This document shows positions 151 to 60,374 of a DNA stretch of 64,000 nucleotides, one piece after another. Where the stretch lies: positions 1 to 64,000 of the forward strand of contig JAFZSI010000010.1 of the NCBI GenBank assembly GCA_017619445.1, in the 5' to 3' direction. Origin of the DNA: Prevotella sp. Its GTDB lineage: Bacteria > Bacteroidota > Bacteroidia > Bacteroidales > Bacteroidaceae. Every line of letters begins with the position of its first letter. Positions within the stretch are counted from its first letter, which is position 1. Both the position numbers and the translations under genes were made by a program. The notes beneath the pieces are model-generated. The model had not been told where the DNA came from. It did no database searches and was given only the letters and a program-made list of their open reading frames with translations.

Positions 151-306
151 GCGTAAGTTTAGCTCAGGATTTTCTAGGGAATCTGGGCGTAAACCACCGC
201 TTTGTTTACGCCAGATGAACAATGGCGGGAACAAGGCGGTGCTTTACGGTGAGGAAGTGAGGCGTTACGGTGGAATTCTCTAGAGAATCTGAACGTAAAG
301 CGCAGG
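151..306. repeat. 21-bp-unit / CTAG-palindrome intergenic element, copy A (double core)
   Basis: Two CTAG cores lie at 174-177 and 280-283, 106 bp apart (5 x 21 + 1). The second is a perfect 14-bp palindrome ATTCTCTAGAGAAT at 275-288. Between them the DNA divides into 21-bp units starting with CTTTG or CTTTACGG at 200, 221, 242 and 263. The 21 bases ending at each CTAG begin GTTTAG or CGTTACG, as in the other copies of this family (12003, 20675, 28711, 52894, 57982). No ORF is credible here. Confidence 0.7.
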
Positions 307-11884: not shown

Positions 11885-12245
11885 CAGCGCATCCCCGCTC
11901 CTGCTCCACGCCATTTGTGTTGAATAGCACAAACGTACACATAGATTTCACAAACGCACGGTTTAGGTTTTTCCCACGAATGGGCAAAATCATAGACCGT
12001 GCGTTTATTTTCAAATTTTCTAGAAAATTTCACCGTAAAGCTTTACTTTGTATTCGTAAAGTGATGCTTTGTAACCGTAAAGGGGCACTTTACGGCAGAG
12101 AACCTATTATTTGCGGATTTACAGGGCTTTTTGCAGGAAATGAAGAACGTGTTTCTGGGCATACTTTTCCGAAAAAGCAAGCGTTTGTGCACAATTTGTT
12201 CACAAAACGAAAACATGAGCATGTTTCTACGTCATGGAACCATGT
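11885..12245. other. Convergent intergenic region, no gene
   Basis: This gap between two convergent genes holds repeat copy B (12003-12095) and a pair of 8-bp sites, TTTGTGCACA and TGTTCACAAA at 12184-12206. A weak AT-rich hairpin (12211-12226) may help terminate the minus-strand transglycosylase gene. I see no open frame with coding character. Confidence 0.6.
12003..12095. repeat. 21-bp-unit / CTAG-palindrome element, copy B
   Basis: It has a perfect 18-bp palindrome AAATTTTCTAGAAAATTT at 12013-12030. The 21 bases ending at CTAG start with GTTTATTTTC. After the core, 21-bp steps begin at 12025, 12046 (CTTTGTATTCG), 12067 (CTTTGTAACCG) and 12088 (CTTTACGG). The CGTAAAG motif recurs four times. 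It sits between a plus-strand and a minus-strand gene. Confidence 0.75.
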
Positions 12246-20674: not shown

Positions 20675-20760
20675 GTTTACAACCAGCGTTTCACAGACGG
20701 CAAATACAAAGCTATGGTTTAGCGTCAAATTTTCTAGAAAATTTCTGTGTAAACCTATGA
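20675..20760. repeat. 21-bp-unit / CTAG-palindrome element, copy C
   Basis: It has a perfect 18-bp palindrome AAATTTTCTAGAAAATTT at 20727-20744. The 21-bp units start at 20675 (GTTTACAACC), 20696 (GACGGCAAAT) and 20717 (GTTTAGCGTC), the last ending at CTAG 20734-20737. The right flank TGTGTAAACC mirrors the left GGTTTA. It lies between divergent genes. Confidence 0.75.
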
Positions 20761-24413: not shown

Positions 24414-24426
24414 TCAAAAACAAAAA

Positions 24427-24481
24427 TAGTAAATTGTAAATAGTAAATAGTAAATCCGTAAATAGTAAATAGTAAATAGTG
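24427..24481. repeat. 7-nt-period repeat ending at the purM start codon
   Basis: Units AGTAAAT, TGTAAAT, AGTAAAT x2, CCGTAAAT (8 nt), AGTAAAT x2, AGTGGAC. The GTG start of purM (24479) is formed inside the last degenerate unit. Every unit carries TAA or TAG in one frame, so upstream translation is blocked here. Confidence 0.8.
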
Positions 24482-27150: not shown

Positions 27151-27972
27151 ATGACCCGACAACAACTTGTAGAACAAATCTTCGCTAAGAAAAGTTTCCT
27201 TTGCGTCGGACTCGATACCGACGCCAAGCGACTGCCCGTGCACCTGCTCGATATGCACGACCCACTCTTTGAGTTCAACCGTGCCATCATCGATGCCACA
27301 GCCCCCTATTGCGTGGCCTTCAAGCCCAACCTGGCCTTCTACGAAGCCTTCGGCCTTCACGGCATGGAGGCCTTCAAGAAGACTGTTGACTACATCAAGG
27401 AGCGCCATCCCCACCATTTCATCATCGCCGACGCAAAACGAGGCGACATAGGCAACACTTCCAAGATGTACGCACGTACATTCTTCCAAGAGTACGACGT
27501 GGATGCGCTCACCGTGGCACCCTACATGGGCGAGGACTCCGTCACTCCCTTCCTTGAGTACGAAGGCAAGTGGGTCATCCTGCTTGCCCTCACCAGCAAC
27601 CAAGGCTCGCTCGACTTCCAACTCACGGCTGACGCTCAGGGCGAACGGCTCTTCGAGCGCGTCATCCGCACCTCGCAGCAGTGGGGCAACACCCAGAATA
27701 TGATGTATGTAGTGGGAGCCACGCGGGGCGAGATGTTCCGCGACATACGCCGCGTTGCGCCCAACCATTTCCTGCTCGTCCCGGGCGTGGGAGCTCAGGG
27801 TGGAAGCCTCGAAGAGGTGTGCCGATACGGCATGACTGCCGACTGCGGACTGCTCGTCAACTCCTCGCGCGGCATCATCTACGCCTCTAACGACGAGAAC
27901 TTCGCCGAGATTGCAGGCAACAAGGCCCGCGAACTGCAACAGCAGATGGCCAGCCTGCTAAGCCAGCTGTAG
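27151..27972 (+). CDS. pyrF: Orotidine 5'-phosphate decarboxylase (type 2)
   Basis: PyrF makes UMP from OMP. The 273-aa length and sequence fit the longer type 2 subgroup: [10 protein letters not shown] at residues 14-23, [14 protein letters not shown] and the catalytic [12 protein letters not shown] (about 93-104). Phosphate-binding [10 protein letters not shown] lies near 210. It is the last gene of the plus-strand run from phoH. Its last 86 bases are overlapped by a minus-strand HU-family frame, and a terminator follows at 28006. Confidence 0.96.
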
Positions 27973-28429
27973 TCTGTACGTCATCCCGCTTAAACTGATA
28001 AGAATACTCGCCAAGCACCCGTGTTTGGCGAGTTTTTGTTTTATTCCTACCCACTTCGAAAAACTTAATGCCCTGATACAGCACGGGATGCCCGTGTCTG
28101 CACTCGGGAAGCACATGCAAGCGCACACCGCGGATATGTTCCTCGGCCCGGAACTCCCCTGCCTCATCCACCTTCCGGCTCTCTATCTCCAACTTCAGCA
28201 GCCCCACGTCGTCCAGACGCACACTGTCGCCCGCGCGGAGGTGGTCGGCCACCACCCCGGCCAGCTCTGTGAGCACGGCAATCACCGTGCCGCGCGAGGC
28301 ACCTGCCCTGCGGCACACCTCCTTCACAATTCTCGCCGTCCCCACCTCGTTCTCATGCACCGCCACCGCCTTCCAGCGGCCGTAGTTCTTCAGCATCGGG
28401 CGGTTCTCCCTGACCATTCTGTACTTCAT
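27887..28429 (-). CDS. HU-family DNA-binding protein with a read-through C-terminus
   Basis: Residues 1 to about 134 match the Bacteroidetes HU-like proteins ([69 protein letters not shown]). They start with an extra segment before the HU fold and usually end soon after GIKFFxV. Here the frame continues for about 46 residues through the pyrF terminator hairpin and 86 bp into the antisense strand of pyrF. That tail ([18 protein letters not shown]) has no family character and looks like read-through after loss of the original stop. DNA binding is likely; the real C-terminus is uncertain. Confidence 0.7.
28006..28041 (+). terminator. Rho-independent terminator after pyrF
   Basis: Stem ACTCGCCAA (28006-28014) pairs with TTGGCGAGT (28025-28033), with an inner CAC/GTG extension, and is followed by TTTTTGTTTTATT. 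It lies 33 bases past the pyrF stop and inside the minus-strand HU frame. Confidence 0.85.
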
Positions 28430-28710: not shown

Positions 28711-28800
28711 CGTTGTTCTCATAAAGCATCACTTTACGTTCACAACTCATCACTTTACGCCTGAATTTTCTACAAAATCCGTTTGCAAAGATAACCTATG
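28711..28800. repeat. 21-bp-unit / CTAG-palindrome element, copy D (degenerate)
   Basis: Units of 21 bp start at 28711 (CGTTGTTCTC), 28732 (CTTTACGTTC) and 28753 (CTTTACGCCT). The core is decayed: AATTTTCTACAAAAT (28764-28778), CTAC in place of CTAG. The right flank still contains GCAAAG and CCTATG as in copies C and F. Confidence 0.65.
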
Positions 28801-29013
28801 AATCGCGAACGCCCAAAATCACGCCCGTAACTGCCACGTTAACGGCCGTAAAAGAGTCATTCTTTGAATTATAATATCTTGAGGATAGCATTCATACTTA
28901 CAATCGCACTAATTATTTCCGATTTTATGAAAAGAAATGCCTCAGTCTGCAAATATTTTAATATCTTTGTAGTCTGAATATGGAAGACCGCAGAAAGAAT
29001 TGCCGATAACACT

Positions 29014-29079
29014 ATGACGAACGTCAATAAGACCACCATCGACCCTGTGTTTGGGTTCATAAAGATTCCGCGGGGATTG
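29014..29079 (+). repeat. 66-bp direct repeat, left copy
   Basis: 65 of 66 bases are identical to 29995-30060. Similarity begins exactly at the ATG: the bases upstream of the two copies (ATAACACT and ACAGAGAT) do not match. The two copies are 981 bp apart and bracket the BRO-domain gene. Confidence 0.9.
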
Positions 29080-29151
29080 TTACTTATCATTTTGAAGCGT
29101 ATGAGATACTTCAACAAAGTGATCGTAATTATTTTGATGAAATATGAATAA
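29014..29151 (+). pseudogene. Truncated copy of the HD-hydrolase 5' end
   Basis: The frame encodes MTNVNKTTIDPVFGFIKIPR and then 25 further residues to a TAA, 45 aa in all. Its first 66 bases equal the start of the intact gene at 29995 with one difference (C for T at 29036), and weaker similarity continues for about 20 bases. After that the sequence is unrelated. A -7 box at 28972-28979 lies upstream, so this looks like the original promoter and start of the HD gene, now cut off from its body. It overlaps the BRO gene start by 8 bases. Confidence 0.8.
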
Positions 29152-29998
29152 AAGACAAAGTATAAAACTGTTTGAAAAACAGAAGGTTCGCACAGTTTGG
29201 GACGACAAGGAAGAAAAGTGGTACTTCTGTGTAGTAGATGTGGTGGAGGCTCTGACAGACAGTATAAACCCAACCGACTACATCAAAAAAATGAAGAAGC
29301 GTGACCCTGAACTTGCCAAAGGGTGGGGACAAATTGTCACCCCCCTTTCCGTTCAGACACCAGGCGGTAAACAGAGGGTTAATTGCGCTACGCAACAGGG
29401 TATTTTCCGTATCATTCAGTCAATTCCCTCTAAAAAGGCGGAGCCCTTTAAGCAATGGATGGCACAGGTGGCCAGTCAGCGTATCGACCAGATGCAAGAC
29501 CCCGAACTGAGCATTGAACAAGCCATAGCCGACTACAAACGACTGGGTTATAGCGATGCGTGGATTAACCAGCGCATCAAGTCAATAGAGGTGCGCAAGG
29601 AGCTGACCGATGAGTGGAAACGGACTGGAGTTCAAGAAGGATTGGAGTACGCGTCACTTACTGACATCATCACTCGCGAATGGAGTGGCTTCACCACAAG
29701 GCAATATAAGCAATACAAGGGGCTGAAGAAGGAAAGTCTGCGTGACAATATGACGAACATCGAGTTGGCACTGAACATTCTGGCTGAGGCATCTACTACA
29801 GAAATCAGCAAGGCTCAGAATCCAAAGGGTTTCAAGCAGAGTGCTGCCGTGGCTCGGAAAGGTGGGGAAATTGCAGGTGATGCCAGGAAAAAACTGGAGG
29901 CGCAAACTGGTCGTGCAGTGATTACGAGAAAGAAAGCCTCTGACTACCTGCCACCATCAGATAGCATTCAAGAGTTACCAGAAGAAACAGAGATATGA
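29144..29998 (+). CDS. BRO-N domain protein (phage antirepressor / DinD-like)
   Basis: A 284-aa protein with a Bro-N domain in residues about 8-115 (IKLFEKQKVRTVWDDKEEKW, WYFCVVDVVEAL, TPGGKQRVNCATQQGIFRII). The C-terminal half is helical and charged, with TDIITREWSGFTTRQYKQYKG and SAAVARKGGEIAGDARKKLE, resembling DinD (DNA-damage-inducible protein D). Bro-N proteins occur in phages and mobile DNA and bind DNA. The gene lies between two copies of the first 66 bp of the HD gene, and its TGA overlaps the HD ATG (ATGA), so it now leads that gene. The context suggests a recently acquired element; no integrase or transposase is present. Confidence 0.8.
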   Translation: MNKRQSIKLFEKQKVRTVWDDKEEKWYFCVVDVVEALTDSINPTDYIKKMKKRDPELAKGWGQIVTPLSVQTPGGKQRVNCATQQGIFRIIQSIPSKKAEPFKQWMAQVASQRIDQMQDPELSIEQAIADYKRLGYSDAWINQRIKSIEVRKELTDEWKRTGVQEGLEYASLTDIITREWSGFTTRQYKQYKGLKKESLRDNMTNIELALNILAEASTTEISKAQNPKGFKQSAAVARKGGEIAGDARKKLEAQTGRAVITRKKASDYLPPSDSIQELPEETEI

Positions 29999-30060
29999 CG
30001 AACGTCAATAAGACCATCATCGACCCTGTGTTTGGGTTCATAAAGATTCCGCGGGGATTG
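29995..30060 (+). repeat. 66-bp direct repeat, right copy
   Basis: This is the first 22 codons of the intact HD-hydrolase gene, matching 29014-29079 with one mismatch. Its left end is the start codon itself, overlapping the BRO stop codon. Confidence 0.9.
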
Positions 30061-31218
30061 CTTTTAGACATTGTGAAGCACCCGCTGGTGCACCGGCTGA
30101 CACGCATCAAGCAGCTGGGTCTGGCATCGTTTGTGTATCCCGGTGCACAGCATACGCGGTTTCAGCACTCGTTAGGTGCGTTCCACCTGATGAGCGAGGC
30201 CATCGTGTCGTTGCAGCAAAAGGGAATCTTCATCTTCGACAGTGAGGCGGAGGCAGTGCAGGCGGCCATCCTGCTGCACGACATCGGACATGGGCCGTTC
30301 TCGCATGTGTTGGAGGACACGCTCATCAGCGGCATCTCGCACGAGGACATCTCGCTGCTGATGATGGAAAAGATGAACAACGAGATGAATGGCGCACTGA
30401 ACCTTGCGTTGAAGATTTTCAAGGACGAATATCCCAAACGCTTTCTGCATCAGCTGATTAGCTCACAGTTGGATATGGACAGACTGGACTATCTGCGACG
30501 CGACTCGTTCTTCACGGGTGTCACCGAGGGCAACATCGGGTCGGCGCGGATTATCAAGATGCTGAACGTGGTGGACGACCGATTAGTGGTTGACTCGAAG
30601 GGCATTTATTCCATTGAGAACTACCTGACCTCAAGGCGGCTGATGTACTGGCAGGTGTACCTGCACAAGACGGCCGTGGCCAGCGAGAAAGTGCTGGTGA
30701 ACACGCTGCTCAGGGCGAAACAGATGGCACGAGAGGGCAAGGAGGTGTTTGCACCACCGTCGCTGCGCTATTTCCTCTACAACGATGTTGACCGCGACTG
30801 GTTCCTGAGCCACGACGAGGCGTTAACGCACTATGAGCGGTTGGACGACAACGACATCTGGAGTGCCGTGAAGGTGTGGATGGACAACGACGACAGGATT
30901 CTGGCCTTGCTGGCCTCCGACCTGATTGGCCGGCGCATTTTCAAGGTGGAAGTGCACGAAACACCCATAGACAGCGAGCAGGAAGAGGCTCTGAAACAAC
31001 GCTTGGCGGCCCAGGCGGGCATTGGACTGGAGGACGCGCACTACCTGATGAGCATCAACACGATTGAGAAAGACATGTATGACGTGAACGACGACCACAT
31101 AGACATTCTCTTCAACGACGGCAGCATAAAAGACATTGCCGAGGCTTCAGAAATATTAAATGTAGGCCTATTATCCAAAAAAATACGTAAATATTATGTC
31201 TGTTATCAACGTTTCTGA
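29995..31218 (+). CDS. HD-superfamily phosphohydrolase
   Basis: A 407-aa cytoplasmic hydrolase of the HD family, similar in layout to dGTPase-like/YdhJ-type proteins common in Bacteroidetes. The metal-binding His/Asp motif is seen in PGAQHTRFQHSLGAFH (about residues 43-58) and AAILLHDIGHGPFSHVLE (about 84-101), with a later Asp in SSQLDMDRLDYLRRD. The substrate cannot be told from sequence. In many relatives it precedes lpxD, as here (51 bp). Its start overlaps the BRO gene by 4 bases, which is probably a new arrangement, since a truncated copy with a promoter lies at 29014. Confidence 0.9.
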   Translation: MTNVNKTIIDPVFGFIKIPRGLLLDIVKHPLVHRLTRIKQLGLASFVYPGAQHTRFQHSLGAFHLMSEAIVSLQQKGIFIFDSEAEAVQAAILLHDIGHGPFSHVLEDTLISGISHEDISLLMMEKMNNEMNGALNLALKIFKDEYPKRFLHQLISSQLDMDRLDYLRRDSFFTGVTEGNIGSARIIKMLNVVDDRLVVDSKGIYSIENYLTSRRLMYWQVYLHKTAVASEKVLVNTLLRAKQMAREGKEVFAPPSLRYFLYNDVDRDWFLSHDEALTHYERLDDNDIWSAVKVWMDNDDRILALLASDLIGRRIFKVEVHETPIDSEQEEALKQRLAAQAGIGLEDAHYLMSINTIEKDMYDVNDDHIDILFNDGSIKDIAEASEILNVGLLSKKIRKYYVCYQRF

Positions 31219-31269: not shown

Positions 31270-32304
31270 ATGGAGTTTACAGCAAAACAAATTGCAGAAT
31301 TCATACAAGGACGTGTAGAAGGAAATGAAAACGCCATTGTCAGCACTTTCGCAAAAATTGAGGAGGGCAAGCCCGGAGCCATTTCTTTCTTGTCGAACCC
31401 CAAATATACCCATTATCTTTACGAAACAAAATCGAGCGTGGTGTTGGTGAACGACGACCTGCAGCTCGAAAAACCTGTCAGCACAACGCTCATCCGTGTG
31501 GCAAACGCCTACGAGAGCGTGGCACAGCTGTTGCAACTGTACGAGAAGATGAAGCCGCGCAAGTCGGGCATCGACCCGTTGGCTTCGATTGCTCCCACGG
31601 CCAAGGTGGCCGACAACTGCTACGTTGGGGCCTTTGCCGTGATTGGCGAAGGGGCCATAGTTGGCGAGGGCTCGCAAATCTATCCTCATGCGGTTGTTGG
31701 CGACGGTGTGAGCATTGGCAAGGAATGTGTGCTCTACCCCAATGTGACCGTCTATCAGGGTTGCAAGTTAGGCAACAATGTCACCCTGCATGCAGGAGCC
31801 GTGATAGGCAGTGACGGTTTCGGCTTTGCTCCGAATGCCGACGGTTACGACAAGATTCCGCAGATAGGCATCGTGGTGATTGAGGACAACGTGGAGATTG
31901 GCGCCAACACCTGCATCGACCGCTCTACAATGGGTGCGACGGTAATCCGCAAGGGTGTGAAGCTGGACAACCTTATCCAAGTGGCCCACAATGTGGAGAT
32001 TGGCAGCAATACTGTCATGGCCGCTCAATGTGGCGTCGCAGGAAGCACAAAGGTTGGCCAGTGGTGCATGTTTGGCGGACAGGTGGGTATGGCCGGCCAT
32101 ATCACCATAGCCGACCAGACACACGTGGGTGCTCAGGCCGGCATTACCAATACGGTGAAGGCACCTGGACAAACCATCATTGGCTCGCCAGCCTGGGATG
32201 CCAAGGGATTCATGAAGTCAGCGGCTGTTTTCCGCAGATTGCCTGATATGTATCAGAAAATCAACGAATTGCAGCGTCAGATTGAAGAGTTAAAGAGTAA
32301 ATAG
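31270..32304 (+). CDS. lpxD: UDP-3-O-(3-hydroxyacyl)glucosamine N-acyltransferase
   Basis: LpxD adds the second hydroxyacyl chain in lipid A synthesis. The 344-aa protein has the N-terminal uridine-binding domain ([18 protein letters not shown]) and a left-handed beta-helix of hexapeptide repeats from about residue 100. The catalytic His is in [15 protein letters not shown] (about residue 240). The C-terminal helix is [21 protein letters not shown] -7 box TAATTTTG lies at 31230-31237. The stop codon lies within a 7-nt repeat that continues to lpxC. Confidence 0.96.
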
Positions 32305-32333
32305 TAAATAGTAAATCGTCAAATAGTAAATTA
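32287..32333. repeat. 7-nt-period repeat spanning the lpxD stop codon
   Basis: Units AGTTAAA, GAGTAAA, TAGTAAA, TAGTAAA, TCGTCAAA (8 nt), TAGTAAA. The first two encode the last residues of LpxD (ELKSK) and its TAG, and the rest fills the spacer before the lpxC ATG at 32339. The unit is nearly the same as before purM. Confidence 0.75.
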
Positions 32334-35409: not shown

Positions 35410-35571
35410 GGGAGTAAAGGAGGTAAAGGAGGTAAAGGAGAAAAGGAGAGAGGATATTTACAATTTGACAATTTACAATTTACAATTTAAAACACCCAAC
35501 ACCCTTACTCCCTCCCTTTGGGAGGGTTGGGGTGGGTTCCTACATTAAGTTCAAAGTTCAATAAATCAAAG
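35410..35571. repeat. Layered repeats and G-quadruplex motif before the PBP gene
   Basis: Three repeat types lie in 160 bp. 35412-35450 has 9-nt units (GGAGGTAAA). 35462-35492 has 7-nt units (ACAATTT x4, one with an extra base). 35510-35526 is CCCTCCC-TTT-GGGAGGG. The G side runs GGG-A-GGG-TT-GGGG-T-GGG (35520-35536), a canonical quadruplex motif on the coding strand 36 nt before the ATG at 35572. Confidence 0.75.
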
Positions 35572-38022
35572 ATGAAAAGTCCTTTACGTGCCATAGGGCA
35601 CAGCATAACAAGATTTTGGAAATGGTATCGCTCACTCTATAAAGGGCGCAAGTGGTATGTTAAGACATTGGCCGCTATCCTTACACTCATTGCTGCTTTC
35701 ATCATCTACTTAGGAGCAGTAGATATCAACTTCCTATGGCTCTTCGGCAAGTCACCAGGCTATATGTCTGGACTCGAACCACAAATCAACCAGGCATCAG
35801 AAATCTATAGTGCCGACGGCAAACTCATTGGAAAATATTTCAATGAGAACCGCACACCCGTGCAGTACGATGAAGTGGCGCCAAACTTCTGGAACGCACT
35901 CATCGACACAGAGGACGAACGTTTCTACAAGCACATTGGCATAGACCCCATCGGCATGTTCGCTGCTGCTAAAGACGCACTGCTTCACCACGACGCACGC
36001 GGTGCTTCCACCATCACACAGCAGTTGGCAAAGAACATGTACAAGATGCGCACCAACAATTCAACAGGACTCTTGGGAAAGATTCCAGGACTGAAAATGC
36101 TCATCCTCAAAACCAAAGAGTGGATTATTGCCTGCAAACTCGAGACCATCTATTCGAAAGAGGAAATACTCACCATGTATGCCAATACCGTTGACTTTGG
36201 CTCCAACTCTTTCGGCATCAAAACAGCCAGCAAAACATACTTCAACACCACGCCCAAGAAACTCACCACCGAACAGGCAGCCGTGCTTGTGGGAATGCTA
36301 AAGGCTACAACCCTCTACAACCCACTCTCCCACCCCGAAAACAGTCTCAAACGGCGCAACGTGGTACTTGGCAACATGGTGGCAAAAGGCGACCTGACAC
36401 AAAACGAGTGTGACTCGCTCTCCAAAATCCCCATCAAGCTCGACTACAGCGTGGAAACCAACTATGACGGCCAGGCCAAGTATTTCCGCGAGGCAGTGGC
36501 CGACTATCTGCAAGAGTGGTGCCACGAAAACGGCTACGACCTCTACAGCAGCGGTCTGAAAATATATACCACCATCGACACCCGCATGCAGCGTTATGCC
36601 GAGCAAGCCGCCATCCGACAGATGCGACAAGTGCAGAAAAACTTTGACAGCCATTGGGCCAACGAAGCACCATGGCAAGACGAGAACCACAAGGAGATTC
36701 CCGGCTTCATCGAGGGAATTGTGCAGAAACTGCCCGTCTATAAAACCCTGCTCGCCAAGTATCCTGACAGCCCGGACTCCATCATGGCTCACCTCAACCG
36801 ACCTCACAAAGTCAAGCTGTTCGACTACGAACAAGGCACCATCGAGCGCGAAATGTCAACCATGGACTCCATCCGCTATATGGTACGCTTCATGCACTGT
36901 TCCTTCGTCGCCATGGAACCCCAGTCGGGAGCTGTGCGCGCCTGGGTGGGCGACATCGATTTCGACTCATGGAAATACGACAAGGTAACCGCCATGCGCC
37001 AGCCTGGCTCCACCTTCAAACTCTTCGTTTATACCGAGGCCATGAACCAGGGACTCACACCCTGCGACAACCGCCGCGACGAATACATCAGCATGCAAGT
37101 GTTCGACAAAATCAAACAGGAAGAAGTCACATGGACCCCAGGCAATGCCAACGGCTATTTTACCGGCGACTCCATGCCCCTGAAAAGCGCCTTTGCCAAG
37201 AGCATCAACTCCATTGCCGTGCGCTTAGGCCAGGAGATGGGCATCAGCAACATCGCCCGCACAGCTATGGACATGGGCATCAAGAGCCCCCTCGACGAGA
37301 CGCCATCCTTAGCACTCGGCTCATCAGACGTCAACCTGCTCGAACTGGTCAACGCCTACTGCACCGTAGCCAACAACGGCATGCACCACGAGCCCGTGCT
37401 CGTCACCAAGATTCTCGACAAAGACGGCGAGGAAGTCTATCTCGGACCAAGCGACAGCCAGCAGGCCATCCCCTACAAGAGCGCCTTCCTCATGCAGCAG
37501 ATGCTCATGGGCGGCATGCGCGAGCCCGGCGGCACATCGCAGGCTCTTTGGGGCTACGTGGGCAACTACTCCGACACAGAGTTCGGCGGCAAAACCGGCA
37601 CTTCCAACAACCATTCCGACGCATGGTTCGTCGGCGTAAGCCCCCGCCTCGTCTGCGGAGCGTGGGTAGGCGGCGAATACCGTTGCATCCATTTCCGCAC
37701 AGGAGCACTCGGCCAGGGCAGCCGCACAGCACTGCCCATCTGCGGCTATTTCCTCGAAGCCCTGTTGCGCGACCCCGCATTCAAACACTATCGCGCACGC
37801 TTCGACAAACCCAAAGACCCCGACATCAACCAAGGTATGTACACCTGCTCGGGCTATACTCCTTCGCAGCGACGCGATACTGCCGACATTGACAGCACCA
37901 TCATCTATGAACAAGAGATAGTGCTCGACGAAAACGGTGTGCCCATCACACAGCCCACTCAGGAAGTGCCCGAAGGAACCATCGAGGAAGAAGAAATCAT
38001 ACTCGACCCCGAGAATATGTGA
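35572..38022 (+). CDS. Penicillin-binding protein 1A (class A, bifunctional)
   Basis: A membrane-anchored peptidoglycan glycosyltransferase/transpeptidase. The start is set at ATG 35572 (MKSPLRAIGHSITRFWK), because the open frame further upstream translates the G-rich spacer; 816 aa. A membrane helix lies at about residues 35-55. The GT51 domain shows EDERFYKHIGIDP and GASTITQQLAKNM (about 118-165). The transpeptidase domain shows SxxK in QPGSTFKLF (about residue 480), SxN in KSINSIAV and KTG in GGKTGTSNNHSDAW (about 680). The C-terminus is acidic (VPEGTIEEEEIILDPENM). Confidence 0.94.
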   Translation: MKSPLRAIGHSITRFWKWYRSLYKGRKWYVKTLAAILTLIAAFIIYLGAVDINFLWLFGKSPGYMSGLEPQINQASEIYSADGKLIGKYFNENRTPVQYDEVAPNFWNALIDTEDERFYKHIGIDPIGMFAAAKDALLHHDARGASTITQQLAKNMYKMRTNNSTGLLGKIPGLKMLILKTKEWIIACKLETIYSKEEILTMYANTVDFGSNSFGIKTASKTYFNTTPKKLTTEQAAVLVGMLKATTLYNPLSHPENSLKRRNVVLGNMVAKGDLTQNECDSLSKIPIKLDYSVETNYDGQAKYFREAVADYLQEWCHENGYDLYSSGLKIYTTIDTRMQRYAEQAAIRQMRQVQKNFDSHWANEAPWQDENHKEIPGFIEGIVQKLPVYKTLLAKYPDSPDSIMAHLNRPHKVKLFDYEQGTIEREMSTMDSIRYMVRFMHCSFVAMEPQSGAVRAWVGDIDFDSWKYDKVTAMRQPGSTFKLFVYTEAMNQGLTPCDNRRDEYISMQVFDKIKQEEVTWTPGNANGYFTGDSMPLKSAFAKSINSIAVRLGQEMGISNIARTAMDMGIKSPLDETPSLALGSSDVNLLELVNAYCTVANNGMHHEPVLVTKILDKDGEEVYLGPSDSQQAIPYKSAFLMQQMLMGGMREPGGTSQALWGYVGNYSDTEFGGKTGTSNNHSDAWFVGVSPRLVCGAWVGGEYRCIHFRTGALGQGSRTALPICGYFLEALLRDPAFKHYRARFDKPKDPDINQGMYTCSGYTPSQRRDTADIDSTIIYEQEIVLDENGVPITQPTQEVPEGTIEEEEIILDPENM

Positions 38023-38030
38023 TAATTTAG

Positions 38031-38130
38031 ATTTGAGATTTGAGAATTGAGAGTTGAGAATTGACGATTGATATAATTGGAGTTCCTTGAGCGCAGCGAA
38101 AATTTGTAAATTGTCAAATTGTAAATTATA
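38031..38130. repeat. 7-nt-period repeats between PBP and helicase genes
   Basis: GAGATTT, GAGAATT, GAGAGTT, GAGAATT at 38036-38063 and AAATTGT, AAATTGTC, AAATTGT, AAATTAT at about 38101-38128. The helicase ATG (38131) follows directly in the last degenerate unit. Confidence 0.7.
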
Positions 38131-40691: not shown

Positions 40692-40738
40692 CTTTGAGGT
40701 TAGAAAATTGAGATTTGAGAATTGAGAATGTAAAATTG
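40692..40738. repeat. 7-nt-type repeat between GH53 and lipoprotein genes
   Basis: Plus-strand words TTGAGAT, TTGAGAA, TTGAGAA follow each other at about 40707-40728, the same word family as at 38036 and 42201. Confidence 0.6.
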
Positions 40739-41761: not shown

Positions 41762-41780
41762 TTTGAGGTCTGTGGTTACT

Positions 41781-41854
41781 ATTAGATAATCCGCTCACGC
41801 TCGGCCAACTCCAAGCGAGCTTGGTTGGCTCTCGCTTACTCGCGGATTTTTTTA
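41781..41854. repeat. REP-like long hairpin, copy 1
   Basis: An imperfect nested palindrome: outer AATCCGC/GCGGATT, then GCCAA/TTGGC, then CCAAGC/GCTTGG, ending in a T-run on the plus strand. It is about 94% identical to 51408-51478. It overlaps the cupin stop codon and encodes its last residues (KIRE). Confidence 0.85.
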
Positions 41855-42188: not shown

Positions 42189-42280
42189 GGTTTTGGGATT
42201 TGAGAATTAAGAATTGAGGTTTGAGACTTGAGGGTACTGATTATTGTTTTTCGCAAACATCAAACCTCAAATCCCAAACC
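42189..42280. repeat. Heptad-built inverted repeat between TonB receptor and cupin
   Basis: Left arm 42189-42204 (GGTTTTGGGATTTGAG) pairs with 42266-42280 (CTCAAATCCCAAACC), one bulge. A nested pair is GAGGTTTGA (42216-42224) with TCAAACCTC (42260-42268). The left side reads as 7-nt units (GATTTGA, GAATTAA, GAATTGA, GGTTTGA, GACTTGA). Confidence 0.75.
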
Positions 42281-51293: not shown

Positions 51294-51334
51294 ACAGCCA
51301 ACCTTCGTCAACGGAAGGAGGCCCTATTATTCAT

Positions 51335-51499
51335 GGAGTTAGCGGGAGTTAACGGAAGTTATCGCGGTCTGCGACCACTCCGGGAGTTAACGGACAATAC
51401 TTTGGCTATTAGATAATCCGCTCTCGCTCGGCAAACTCCAAGCGAGCTTGGTTGGCTCTCGCTTAATCGCGGATTTGTCCGTTAACTCCCGCTAACTCC
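51335..51499. repeat. Nested inverted repeats between radA and queC, holding REP copy 2
   Basis: The outer arms are perfect: 51335-51354 with 51480-51499 (20 bp, GGAGTTAGCGGGAGTTAACG). An alternative perfect pair is 51381-51397 with 51475-51491 (17 bp). Between them lies REP copy 2 (51408-51474), itself a hairpin. The region lies between convergent genes and probably serves as a structured terminator. Confidence 0.85.
51408..51478. repeat. REP-like long hairpin, copy 2
   Basis: It starts ATTAGATAATCCGCTC and ends GCGGATTTGTCC; only a few differences from 41781-41851 (for example CACGCTCGGCC for CTCGCTCGGCA). The same nested stem pairs (AATCCGC/GCGGATT, CCAAGC/GCTTGG) are kept. No gene runs through it. 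Confidence 0.85.
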
Positions 51500-51514
51500 C
51501 TTAAAAAAAGTAAG

Positions 51515-52679: not shown

Positions 52680-53220
52680 ATCTTTATAGATTAATCATTC
52701 TTTAGCTGCAAAGATAACACTTTATTCTCTCCCCTGCAAACATTTATCGGGAAAAAGACCTGTGTGGTGAAGAAAGCGAAATGTTAAAATCCATAATTCT
52801 GTGCACAACTTGTGCACAAAAAAGATTGTGAGGAACGAACAGAGTGTTTCGAACCCTGAATATATGCTATGAATCCGTAGTTTTACGCTTTGTTTTCACA
52901 TATATACGCTTTACGAACGCAAAGTGTAGGTTTACGCGCAAATTCTCTAGAAAATTTGAACGCAAAGTGTAGGTTTACGAATGCAGAGTGAAGGTTTATA
53001 AATGCAAAGTGAAGTTTTACGAACGTAAAGTGGTTTGTGAAGCTGCGCGTGGGAGTGTTTTACTCGCTGATTTGCAAAGTGTATGTGTCATTCGCGTGGG
53101 CGGTGTGCAAAAAAAGAATAAATTGCAGGCGGCAAGTGGCGGAATGTGAATTATTTGTAGTAATTTTGCAATCGGAAAAAATGAATACTCAATAGTAACA
53201 AGTTAATTATACATTTCATT
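52680..53220. other. Divergent intergenic region, no gene
   Basis: It holds a pair of TGTGCACA sites 11 bp apart (52800-52818), repeat copy E (52894-53041) and, near pgk, a -7 box TAATTTTG at 53161-53168 without a clear -33. I find no coding frame. Confidence 0.6.
52894..53041. repeat. 21-bp-unit / CTAG-palindrome element, copy E (longest array)
   Basis: 21-bp units begin at 52915, 52958, 52979, 53000 and 53021, with consensus GAAYGYAAAGTGWAGGTTTA plus C. The first two are identical. The core AAATTCTCTAGAAAATTT (52940-52957) takes one slot of 22 bp between units 1 and 2. In this copy the array runs in the reverse orientation to copy F. Confidence 0.85.
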
Positions 53221-57510: not shown

Positions 57511-57942
57511 ATGCAGATAATCAGGGCAACAAAAACAGCACAGCAGGCCGGAGCCTATTATGTGCGCATTCAGGCAATGGCCCGCAAGCATCAGATTCCG
57601 CTTGAGGTGGAGTTTGACGAGCACGATACGCCCGAAACCAAGTACATTGTTGTGGTTGACGACTATCTGCCCGTAGCCACCTGCCGGATGTATGCCATTG
57701 ACCAACAGCACGTAATGCTCGGGCGGATTGTGGTGCTGCCAGAGTACAGGCACAAGGGGCTGGGCACTCTTGTTGTCAAGGAAGCAGAGCAGTGGGCCAG
57801 AGAGCTGGGCTATCTGACTGCCGTCTTAGAGAGCCGCGACAACAAGATTCCTTTCTACGAAACCATGGGCTACGTCATTGCCGACCCCAACATGATTGTC
57901 GGCGACACATTCACCTGCATCAGAATGGAAAAACAGCTGTAA
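57511..57942 (+). CDS. GNAT-family N-acetyltransferase
   Basis: A 143-aa single-domain acetyltransferase using acetyl-CoA. The CoA-binding motif A is RIVVLPEYRHKGLGTLVVKE (about residues 71-90; RxxGxG/A as RHKGLG), with motif B near ESRDNKIPFYETMGYVI. Substrate cannot be inferred. It has its own promoter and no clear operon partner; repeat copy F follows. Confidence 0.9.
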   Translation: MQIIRATKTAQQAGAYYVRIQAMARKHQIPLEVEFDEHDTPETKYIVVVDDYLPVATCRMYAIDQQHVMLGRIVVLPEYRHKGLGTLVVKEAEQWARELGYLTAVLESRDNKIPFYETMGYVIADPNMIVGDTFTCIRMEKQL

Positions 57943-57981: not shown

Positions 57982-58079
57982 CTTTGTTTTCACAAACCAA
58001 TGCTTTGCATTCATAAACCTAAACTTTACATTCACAAAGCATAGGTTTACGTTCAAATTTTCTAGATAATTCATATGAG
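57982..58079. repeat. 21-bp-unit / CTAG-palindrome element, copy F
   Basis: Four consecutive 21-bp units start at 57982 (CTTTGTTTTC), 58003 (CTTTGCATTC), 58024 (CTTTACATTC) and 58045 (GTTTACGTTC); the last ends exactly at CTAG 58062-58065. The right half of the palindrome is decayed (ATAATTC). It sits between convergent genes. Confidence 0.85.
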
Positions 58080-58131: not shown

Positions 58132-58169
58132 TAAAAAATGCGGCGCATCCAAGTGTAGGATGCGCCGCA
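58132..58169 (-). terminator. Rho-independent terminator of mutAB
   Basis: Perfect 12-bp arms TGCGGCGCATCC (58139-58150) and 58158-58169 with a 7-nt loop, followed on the minus strand by TTTTTTATTTG. It lies 43 bases after the mutB stop. Confidence 0.88.
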
Positions 58170-58211: not shown

Positions 58212-60374
58212 CTACTCGTCGAGCAGAATCTTCATCATCTCACAGGCTGCCTTGGCCACGGAGGTGCCGGGACCGAAGATGGCGGCCACGCCTGCCTTGT
58301 AGAGGAAGTCGTAGTCCTGGGCGGGAATGACACCACCGGCGATGACCATGATGTCGTCGCGTCCAAGCTTGTGAAGTTCCTGGATGAGCTGCGGGATGAG
58401 TGTTTTGTGGCCAGCGGCAAGACTGGACGCACCCACGATGTGCACGTCGTTCTCCACAGCCTCGCGTGCGGCCTCCTCGGGAGTCTGGAACAGGGGTCCC
58501 ATATCCACGTCGAAACCACAGTCGGCATAGCCGGTGGCAACCACTTTCGCACCACGGTCGTGCCCGTCTTGTCCCATCTTCGCCACGAAGATGCGGGGGC
58601 GTCGGCCTTCTTTCTTTGCAAACTCTTCTGTCAACGCACAGGCTTTCTCAAAGTCTGAGTCGTTTTTGCTTTCACTGCTATACACGCCTGAAATAGTTCT
58701 GATTACTGCTTTATAACGGCCAACGATTTCCTCGCAGGCATCACTGATTTCTCCGAGAGTACAACGCAGGCCCGCAGCCTTGACAGCAAGGTCGAGCAGG
58801 TTGTTCTGGCTCTTTTTGCCCTCAGCAAACTCGCGCACGCACTCGGTGATTTCCTTCAGGGCTGCCTGGCAGGCAGCTTCATCGCGGTTGGCGCGCAGTT
58901 CTTTCAGGCTTTCCTCCTGTTGCAGGCGCACAGCGGTGTTGTCAACCTCAAGGATGTCGATGGGATCTTCGTGCTCCAAACGATACTTGTTGGTGCCGAC
59001 GATGGTCTGCACGCCTGAGTCGATGCGGGCCTGCGTGCGGGCTGCGGCTTCCTCGATACGCATCTTGGGCAGACCAGTCTCAATGGCCTTGGCCATGCCG
59101 CCAAGTTTCTCGATTTCCTGAATGTGCTCCCAAGCCTTGTGTACGAGCTCATTGGTGAGCGTCTCCACATAGTATGAGCCTGCCCACGGGTCAATCTCCT
59201 TACAAACTTTCGTCTCGTTCTGGATGTAAATCTGCGTATTGCGGGCAATACGAGCCGAGAAGTCAGTAGGCAATGCGATGGCCTCGTCGAGGGCGTTGGT
59301 GTGAAGACTCTGAGTGTGACCCAAGACTGCCGCCATGGCCTCGATACAAGTACGTCCCACATTGTTGAAGGGATCTTGCTCGGTGAGGCTCCAGCCAGAG
59401 GTCTGCGAGTGAGTACGCAGGGCCAGTGATTTGGGGTTGGTGGCTCCGAAGCTCTTCACAATCTTCGCCCAAAGCAGACGGCCGGCGCGCATCTTGGCAA
59501 TCTCCATGAAGTGGTTCATGCCAATGGCCCAGAAGAACGACAGACGAGGTGCGAAGGCATCGACGGCAATGCCGGCATTGACACCTGTGCGCAGATAGTC
59601 CATACCGTCGGCCAGCGTATAAGCCAACTCAATGTCGGCGGTGGCACCTGCCTCCTGCATGTGGTAACCAGAGATAGAGATGGAGTTGAACTTCGGCATC
59701 TTTTGCGAAGTGTACTCAAAGATGTCGGCGATGATTTTCATCGAGAAGGCGGGCGGATAAATGTAGGTGTTTCGCACCATGAACTCCTTCAGAATGTCGT
59801 TCTGAATGGTTCCGGCCATTTCCTCGAGCTTTGCGCCCTGCTCCAGACCTGCATTGATGTAGAATGCAAGAACGGGCAGCACACCGCCGTTCATAGTCAT
59901 TGAAACGGACATCTTGTTGAGGGGAATGCCGGAGAACAGCACCTTCATGTTCTCGAGCGAGCAGATGCTCACACCAGCCTTACCCACATCGCCCACTACA
60001 CGGGCGTTGTCGGGGTCGTAACCACGGTGTGTTGGCAAGTCGAATGCCACCGACAAACCTTTCTGTCCGCTGGCAAGGTTACGGCGATAGAATGCATTGG
60101 ATTCCTCAGCCGTTGAGAATCCGGCATACTGACGGATGGTCCACGGACGGAATGGATACATCATTGAATACGGACCACGAAGATAGGGAGGAATACCTGC
60201 GGTGAAATCGAGGTGCTCCATGCCTTCGAGGTCTTCTTTGGTATAAACAGGACGAACCTCAATATGCTCTGGAGTCTTCCAGTTGTTCACAATGTTGTTG
60301 TCCTTCAACCACTTGGCACCATCTTGAGCCTTGATGCCTGCATAAATGTCAATGTCTTTAAAATTTTTACGCAT
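58212..60374 (-). CDS. mutB: Methylmalonyl-CoA mutase, large (catalytic) subunit
   Basis: The B12-dependent enzyme interconverts succinyl-CoA and (R)-methylmalonyl-CoA, the key step in propionate formation by Bacteroidetes. The 720-aa protein has the N-terminal barrel ([20 protein letters not shown], residues about 66-85; [29 protein letters not shown]) and a C-terminal cobalamin domain with the base-off motif DGHDRG at 603-608, His605 being the lower ligand. It then has [10 protein letters not shown] and VIAGGVIP. It follows mutA by 20 bases and ends at a strong terminator. No B12 riboswitch is seen upstream of the operon. Confidence 0.97.

Follow-up and report, generated by a model that had tools for sequence, protein, structure and literature searches.

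The element under study lies in a 64,000-nucleotide stretch of a Prevotella sp. contig (the window) and consists of 21-bp units that run into a CTAG-centred palindromic core of 18 bp. The functions of its two neighbouring genes were read by eye (Table 1). A GC-rich hairpin at positions 58140-58169 is separate from the element, which lies past the hairpin. The sequence-only reading had described six loci in the window where 21-bp units run into such a palindrome. All six are found where it placed them, and the perfect 18-bp palindromes at 12013 and 20727 are confirmed.

Table 1. Elements, genes and heptamer repeats of the window. Positions are counted from the first nucleotide of the window.
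Feature	Position	Strand	Remarks
Element under study	57982..58079	.	21-bp units into core 58055-58072; convergent gap
Flanking gene, GNAT-like (read by eye)	57511-57942	+	
Flanking gene, methylmalonyl-CoA mutase-like (read by eye)	58212-60374	-	
Two-core element	151..306	.	cores 167-184 and 273-290, 106 bp between
Element with perfect core 12013-12030	12003..12095	.	units rightward; convergent gap
Element with perfect core 20727-20744	20675..20760	.	divergent gap
Element with degenerate core 28763-28780	28711..28800	.	core 342 bp upstream of HU-HIG start codon
Element with core 52940-52957	52894..53041	.	units on both sides; divergent gap
HU-HIG gene (PF18291), proposed binder	27887..28429	-	profile match; subfamily co-occurring with elements
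Heptamer repeats	24424-24480, 32291-32331, 35456-35489, 38020-38071, 40693-40738, 42192-42233		

The genome searched for the core spans 2.87 Mb in 81 contigs and is 85% complete. The 18-bp core, with up to three mismatches, has 334 matches in the whole genome and one match in the reversed control. The window contains four cores at this threshold, as compared to 0.01 in dinucleotide shuffles. A symmetric 60-bp profile was built from both strands of 94 cores (up to three mismatches) in an 823-kb sample, which consists of the window and further contig stretches and represents 29% of the genome. The profile reads AAATTTTCTAGAAAATTT with phased flanks. It detects 105 cores in the sample, the same number at all thresholds from 8 to 20 bits, and zero cores in the reversed sample; in the window it detects no element beyond the six loci. 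With cores within 260 bp merged into one element, the 105 cores make up 69 elements, and extrapolated to the genome, these numbers correspond to some 370 cores and some 245 elements. The sequence-only reading would have been refuted by a scarcity of further copies in the genome, but hundreds are present.

Around the 94 aligned cores, A/T triplets recur every 10–11 bp with AAA alternating with TTT, and an inverted pair of half-sites (a dyad) recurs with every 21 bp, a pattern that reaches about 110 bp to either side of the core. Where a dyad is scored as filled if five of its six letters match, dyads 1, 2, 3 and 4 are filled in 77, 35, 54 and 34% of 209 arms, respectively; the chance level is 0.65%. 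The core-to-core distances inside elements (n = 36) are 42, 43, 85 (11 cases), 106 (16 cases), 107, 127 (three cases), 148 (two cases) and 191 bp, and all of them fit the series 43+21n within 1 bp. The half-sites, YAAA and TTTR, are more often anti-complementary than complementary, both within dyads (157 vs. 67) and where half-sites face each other between dyads (90 vs. 42). This property argues against base pairing in an RNA and also means that the arrays have a polarity.

Copies equally common within genes would have spoken against the sequence-only reading, but none of the 69 sampled elements is inside a called gene. Two are at sequence ends, and the other 67 are found in 32 co-directional, 21 convergent and 14 divergent gaps, where the 32 include the window element at 28771 whose gap becomes divergent once the HU-HIG gene missed by the gene caller is counted. 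The proposed rule that copies lie only at switches of gene orientation is thus correct for the five placed copies of the window, with this same proviso for 28771, but does not extend to the genome sample, in which 32/67 copies are co-directional. Enrichment at switches is present in the form of an over-representation of convergent gaps in this genome. Among gaps of 200–500 bp, an element is found in 17/23 convergent, 5/36 divergent and 13/68 co-directional gaps, and the convergent class compares with 18/104 for all other gaps (Fisher 3e-7). A hand count places 29 of the 32 co-directional copies closer to the upstream gene's 3′ end than to the start of the next gene. Genes were called with a home-made hexamer program, which missed HU-HIG genes beside window 28771, C45:20314 and C47:82054, and long gaps may therefore hide genes.

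The intervals between elements (n = 60) have a minimum of 3.87 kb and a median of 9.6 kb. The CV of the intervals is 0.50 versus 0.91±0.11 for random placement in gaps; a value as low was obtained in 0/2000 placements and in none of 5000 draws that kept gap type and length. Intervals below 3.8 kb are absent where 12.9±3.5 are expected, and a count of zero occurred in none of 5000 draws with type and length rates kept; the 3.8-kb cut-off was picked after the data were seen, and the CV test is independent of it. Nine convergent gaps of 200–700 bp are without an element. Six of these sit 0.8–3.2 kb from an element, and another falls in a 53-kb low-GC stretch that is free of elements. This stretch, C11:1-53000 (L042-L044), has a GC content of 0.447 and is poorly coding; among ten genes scanned in it, several are of the polysaccharide type (Polysacc_synt_2, DegT) and others are housekeeping genes (DXP synthase, with TrkA/TrkH near the end of the stretch).

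In a second species, G486, 797 kb of sequence contain 51 cores in 36 elements, and the reversed sequence has none. None of the 36 is in a called gene; 15 are in co-directional, 13 in divergent and 7 in convergent gaps, and one is at a sequence end. Elements fill 4/11 convergent, 3/31 divergent and 7/79 co-directional gaps of 200–500 bp, and 7/41, 12/52 and 15/194, respectively, of gaps of at least 100 bp. The convergent preference is weaker in G486, as over gaps of at least 100 bp the divergent gaps are no less filled. The intervals (n = 29, with one pair 360 bp apart merged) have a minimum of 8.0 kb. None is below 8 kb as against 8.9±2.1 expected, a result reached in none of 5000 draws; this cut was picked after the data were seen and the CV alone gives P 0.08.

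A comparison of this genome with G486 yielded 139 reciprocal best pairs with a median identity of 80%, and there are 74 conserved gene junctions. An element is present at the junction in both species in four cases, here alone in one and in neither in 69 (Fisher 4e-6). At the junction with an element here alone, the G486 gap is 3.7 kb long. At the four shared junctions the number or spacing of the cores differs and the units read differently. Since the places are shared and the array sequences differ, the places appear to be older than the present array sequences.

The core (up to two mismatches) was searched for in 301 family genomes; this genome has 280 matches, G122 has 23 and G233 has four. 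Sixty further family genomes show 1–4 matches, mostly at the level of the reversed control; G163 has four matches against two reversed, and G241 has three copies of a single sequence. A core-plus-flank pattern with up to one mismatch is present in 44 of 398 genomes of the genus. The flank period in 37 other genomes is 21 bp in five (G486, G518, G598, G612 and G620) and 22 bp in 15, with no period assigned in 17, and the calls shift with the number of loci (G669 from 21 to 22, G637 from 21 to none assigned). The 21-bp spacing, which the sequence-only reading expected to be kept outside the window, is thus kept as a two-turn period, but its length is 21 bp in some species and 22 bp in others. 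Core pairs in most other species are 65–66 bp apart (43+22), and this is also true of G620 despite its 21-bp period. The distance is 43 bp in G624 as well as in G637, and G486 shows distances of 43, 106 and 127 bp. CTACATG-type direct repeats were observed beside the core pair in G607 (L064, L174, L175).

The nearest MutB relatives are 93–95% identical and come from Prevotella/Prevotellaceae MAGs, several of them from the rumen. Of 80 MutB loci 28 were scanned (L090-L117), comprising these nearest relatives and 21 further loci, and no element is present in the stretches covered, so the role of the elements is not general to the genus. Three of these loci carry a lone core-like 16-mer (up to three mismatches) that does not score as an element.

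A survey of neighbouring genes in 3-kb element loci of other species shows that HU-HIG and BT4734-like_N genes are recurrent. A core or core pair adjoins an HU-HIG gene in eight species. Four of the eight have a BT4734-like_N cluster gene on the opposite side, and one member of this cluster was confirmed by Pfam. The HU-HIG family (PF18291) was reportedly described in a survey, published in 2017, of the HU superfamily, and is not known to have a DNA site. In the literature collection searched, no paper names HU-HIG together with bacteroidetes. The HU-HIG gene of the window scores 52.3 bits with PF18291, where the cut-off is 26.2. This genome has 13 PF18291 matches, seven of which belong to one subfamily (alignment A1; membership threshold at least 145 bits). 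All six readable subfamily genes have a core upstream, and the seventh copy is at a contig end. The distance from core to family match is 153–158 bp in four of the six, and 186 and 345 bp in the other two. Of the six matches outside the subfamily, four are without a nearby core; in the other two, one is present at 291 bp downstream and at 565 bp upstream, respectively. The subfamily profile shows a weak resemblance to solved HU proteins (best E 3e-4).

The subfamily gene is present in 82 of the 398 genus genomes, i.e. in 36/44 that are positive for the core-plus-flank pattern and 46/354 that are negative (Fisher 7e-21). A hand tally limited to genomes with a completeness of at least 90% and a contamination of at most 5% gives 15/15 pattern-positive against 13/160 others. 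Nine element-positive genomes supplied the subfamily alignment; when these are removed from an 80-genome set, the gene is found in 22/30 positive and 0/41 negative genomes, the negatives having been chosen for high completeness. The gene has a stop codon in G490 and G637, which are both among the 36. At the family level it is found in 4/301 genomes, namely this genome, G122, G233 and G021, the last with a stop codon. A single clade (99/95) unites the proteins of those 21-bp species in which the gene is known, a grouping based on two species.

A core is also upstream of the subfamily gene in 39/59 loci of other genomes, and in 36 it is a pair 65–66 bp apart. The 39 comprise 20/30 loci examined from the 46 genomes that have the gene but not the flank-requiring pattern (17 pairs) and 19/29 remaining loci (all pairs); ten loci in each group have no core upstream. 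The flanks of 25 other HU-HIG genes, from five element-positive genomes without the subfamily, contain zero cores up to 1.5 kb. The HU-HIG subfamily, which belongs to the HU/IHF superfamily, is thus likely to be the binder of the elements. In several of L203-L216 and L305-L327 there is a third, imperfect core (3–4 mismatches) about 40–65 bp before the HU-HIG start codon, and this is possibly the operator proper. In the HU-HIG promoters of L194-L196 and L198, TAACTTTGC, a Bacteroidetes-like promoter motif, is directly before the core, which points to an overlap of the array with the transcription start.

The arrays may instead be bound by another protein, with the HU-HIG gene merely one of its targets. 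Eight of the 44 pattern-positive genomes are without an intact subfamily gene, and these include four of the six clear 21-bp species (G518, G598, G612 and G620, 70–85% complete). In addition, the half-sites alternate in kind, which could suit a heterodimer. However all eight genomes are less than 90% complete while every pattern-positive genome above that level has the gene, and the position of the core upstream of this gene, here and in other genomes, makes a different binder unlikely.

HU and IHF each kink DNA twice, at points separated by about 9 bp, which is near the 10–11 bp separation of half-sites in the elements. On the basis of the anatomy and phasing, the intergenic placement, the even spacing, the co-occurrence with the subfamily gene and position upstream of it, and the places kept in two species, a probability of about 0.6 is assigned to the reading in which a dedicated, autoregulated protein of the HU-HIG subfamily binds the elements as arrays, and these have an architectural or insulating role near the ends of transcription units. 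The CTAG-centred palindrome would be the nucleating site for the protein. Each two-turn flanking unit would present an inverted pair of A/T half-sites, YAAA and TTTR, on the same face and at a distance of about 10 bp. As two such half-sites suit one dimer, successive dimers may bend or wrap the DNA, with the bends adding in one direction. The protein would regulate its own gene by way of the upstream copy, used as an operator at the promoter, and the dispersed copies, mostly by transcription-unit ends and several kb apart, would act as chromosomal points with an architectural or insulating function. The distribution suits the earlier proposal of a dispersed, helically phased and probably protein-bound site that organises the chromosome or marks transcription-unit ends, but not its confinement to orientation switches. 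The association with the HU-HIG subfamily, the even spacing and the kept places with replaced array sequence go beyond that proposal.

A non-autonomous mobile repeat (REP- or MITE-like) spread by transposition could also account for a patchy occurrence with hundreds of copies in one species, and the exclusion zone would then be a form of target immunity. The subfamily gene itself is present here in seven copies, two of which have promoters 87% alike over 201 bp. Pairwise identities of the elements have a heavier upper tail than expected, with 20/5420 pairs exceeding every column-shuffled null pair and a 99th percentile of 0.570 vs. 0.516 in the null. The median pair identity however is 0.450 vs. 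0.447 in the null, so that copies are not alike along their length in the manner of a MITE or insertion sequence, and the similarity of the ten closest pairs ends about 100 bp from the core. The places are moreover common with G486, although the sequence differs and so does the number or spacing of the cores. That whole copies transposed recently is mostly rejected on the pairwise identities and the G486 comparison, with the heavier upper tail remaining, and the mobile-repeat explanation as a whole appears quite improbable. A phage origin is rejected as well, since exact-pattern searches of viral contigs gave 1 and 0 matches. The sole viral contig with an exact core pair is L335 (IMGVR_UViG_3300001521_000309, 965-1046).

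BIMEs bind IHF, gyrase and PolI. REP/BIME sequences of the GTAG and CGTC families are palindromic, high-copy, intergenic and partly species-specific, and are mostly between co-directional or convergent genes, downstream of coding regions (PMC3733652). The elements here share with them the high copy number, the intergenic location, the preference for co-directional or convergent gaps and the proximity to 3′ ends. No GTAG or CGTC tag at one palindrome end was seen in the single element copies inspected; single copies were used for this because the core profile was built from both strands. The sole RAYT (Y1_Tnp) match in the genome, which is 85% complete, scores 20.8 bits and is under the cut-off of 23, and on this ground a RAYT-driven REP is rejected. 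The elements also differ from REP/BIME in their two-turn register, non-complementary half-sites, even spacing and a dedicated HU-like gene with an upstream site. That they act at operon ends as transcription terminators, or as RNA elements of another kind, as the convergent preference in this genome and the closeness of co-directional copies to upstream 3′ ends might indicate, is very improbable, as the anti-complementary half-sites are the opposite of selected pairing, 14/67 elements are in divergent gaps, the element under study is past a separate GC-rich hairpin and an Rfam search of the window gave nothing at the gathering score. The hairpin form of this reading is rejected on the half-sites and the Rfam result.

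As putative binding arrays, the elements may be compared with sites of known DNA-binding proteins. The IHF consensus is WATCAANNNNTTR. The elements resemble IHF/HU sites in their YAAA...TTTR half-sites, which are spaced by about one helical turn, and in a candidate partner from the HU/IHF superfamily, namely the HU-HIG family (PF18291). They differ in the tandem arrays around a palindromic core, in a spacing that departs from the IHF consensus and in the lineage-restricted protein. In the matS/MatP and parS/ParB systems a dispersed palindromic motif and a dedicated protein have an architectural role. The elements are similar as regards a dispersed palindromic motif, a candidate dedicated protein and a proposed architectural role, and their distribution is constrained, as the spacing tests in two species show. 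Unlike matS and parS, they are arrays rather than single sites, avoid neighbours within several kb and have their sequence replaced in place between species. It is proposed that they be classed, as a variant, among chromosome-organising or architectural binding sites. No such repeat is described in the literature retrieved, as far as the available parts of those papers go.

A broader interpretation may be put forward tentatively. The elements could be a self-excluding chromosomal punctuation, in which a dedicated HU-like protein wraps phased arrays at fixed junctions about every 10 kb. The places would be long inherited, and the array sequence, period (21 or 22 bp) and protein would change together, as in a bacterial equivalent of satellite DNA that turns over fast while its sites stay fixed. 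If the elements are indeed bound in this way, the chromosomes of some uncultured gut bacteria would be marked near-regularly by sequence-specific HU-like nucleoprotein arrays, the HU-HIG family would gain a DNA target, and the system would offer a natural test of organising sites and proteins that co-evolve at unmoved positions.

Other repeats are also present in the window. Heptamer repeats of the AAATAGT, ATTTACA and TTTGAGA types, which are mostly intergenic, constitute a second repeat family (Table 1). Two 71-bp copies at 41779-41849 and 51406-51476 are 96% alike, and the latter is bracketed by 33-bp inverted arms at 51324-51356 and 51478-51510. An 86-bp direct repeat, 29013-29098 and 29994-30079, is 91% alike and is found at adjacent genes.
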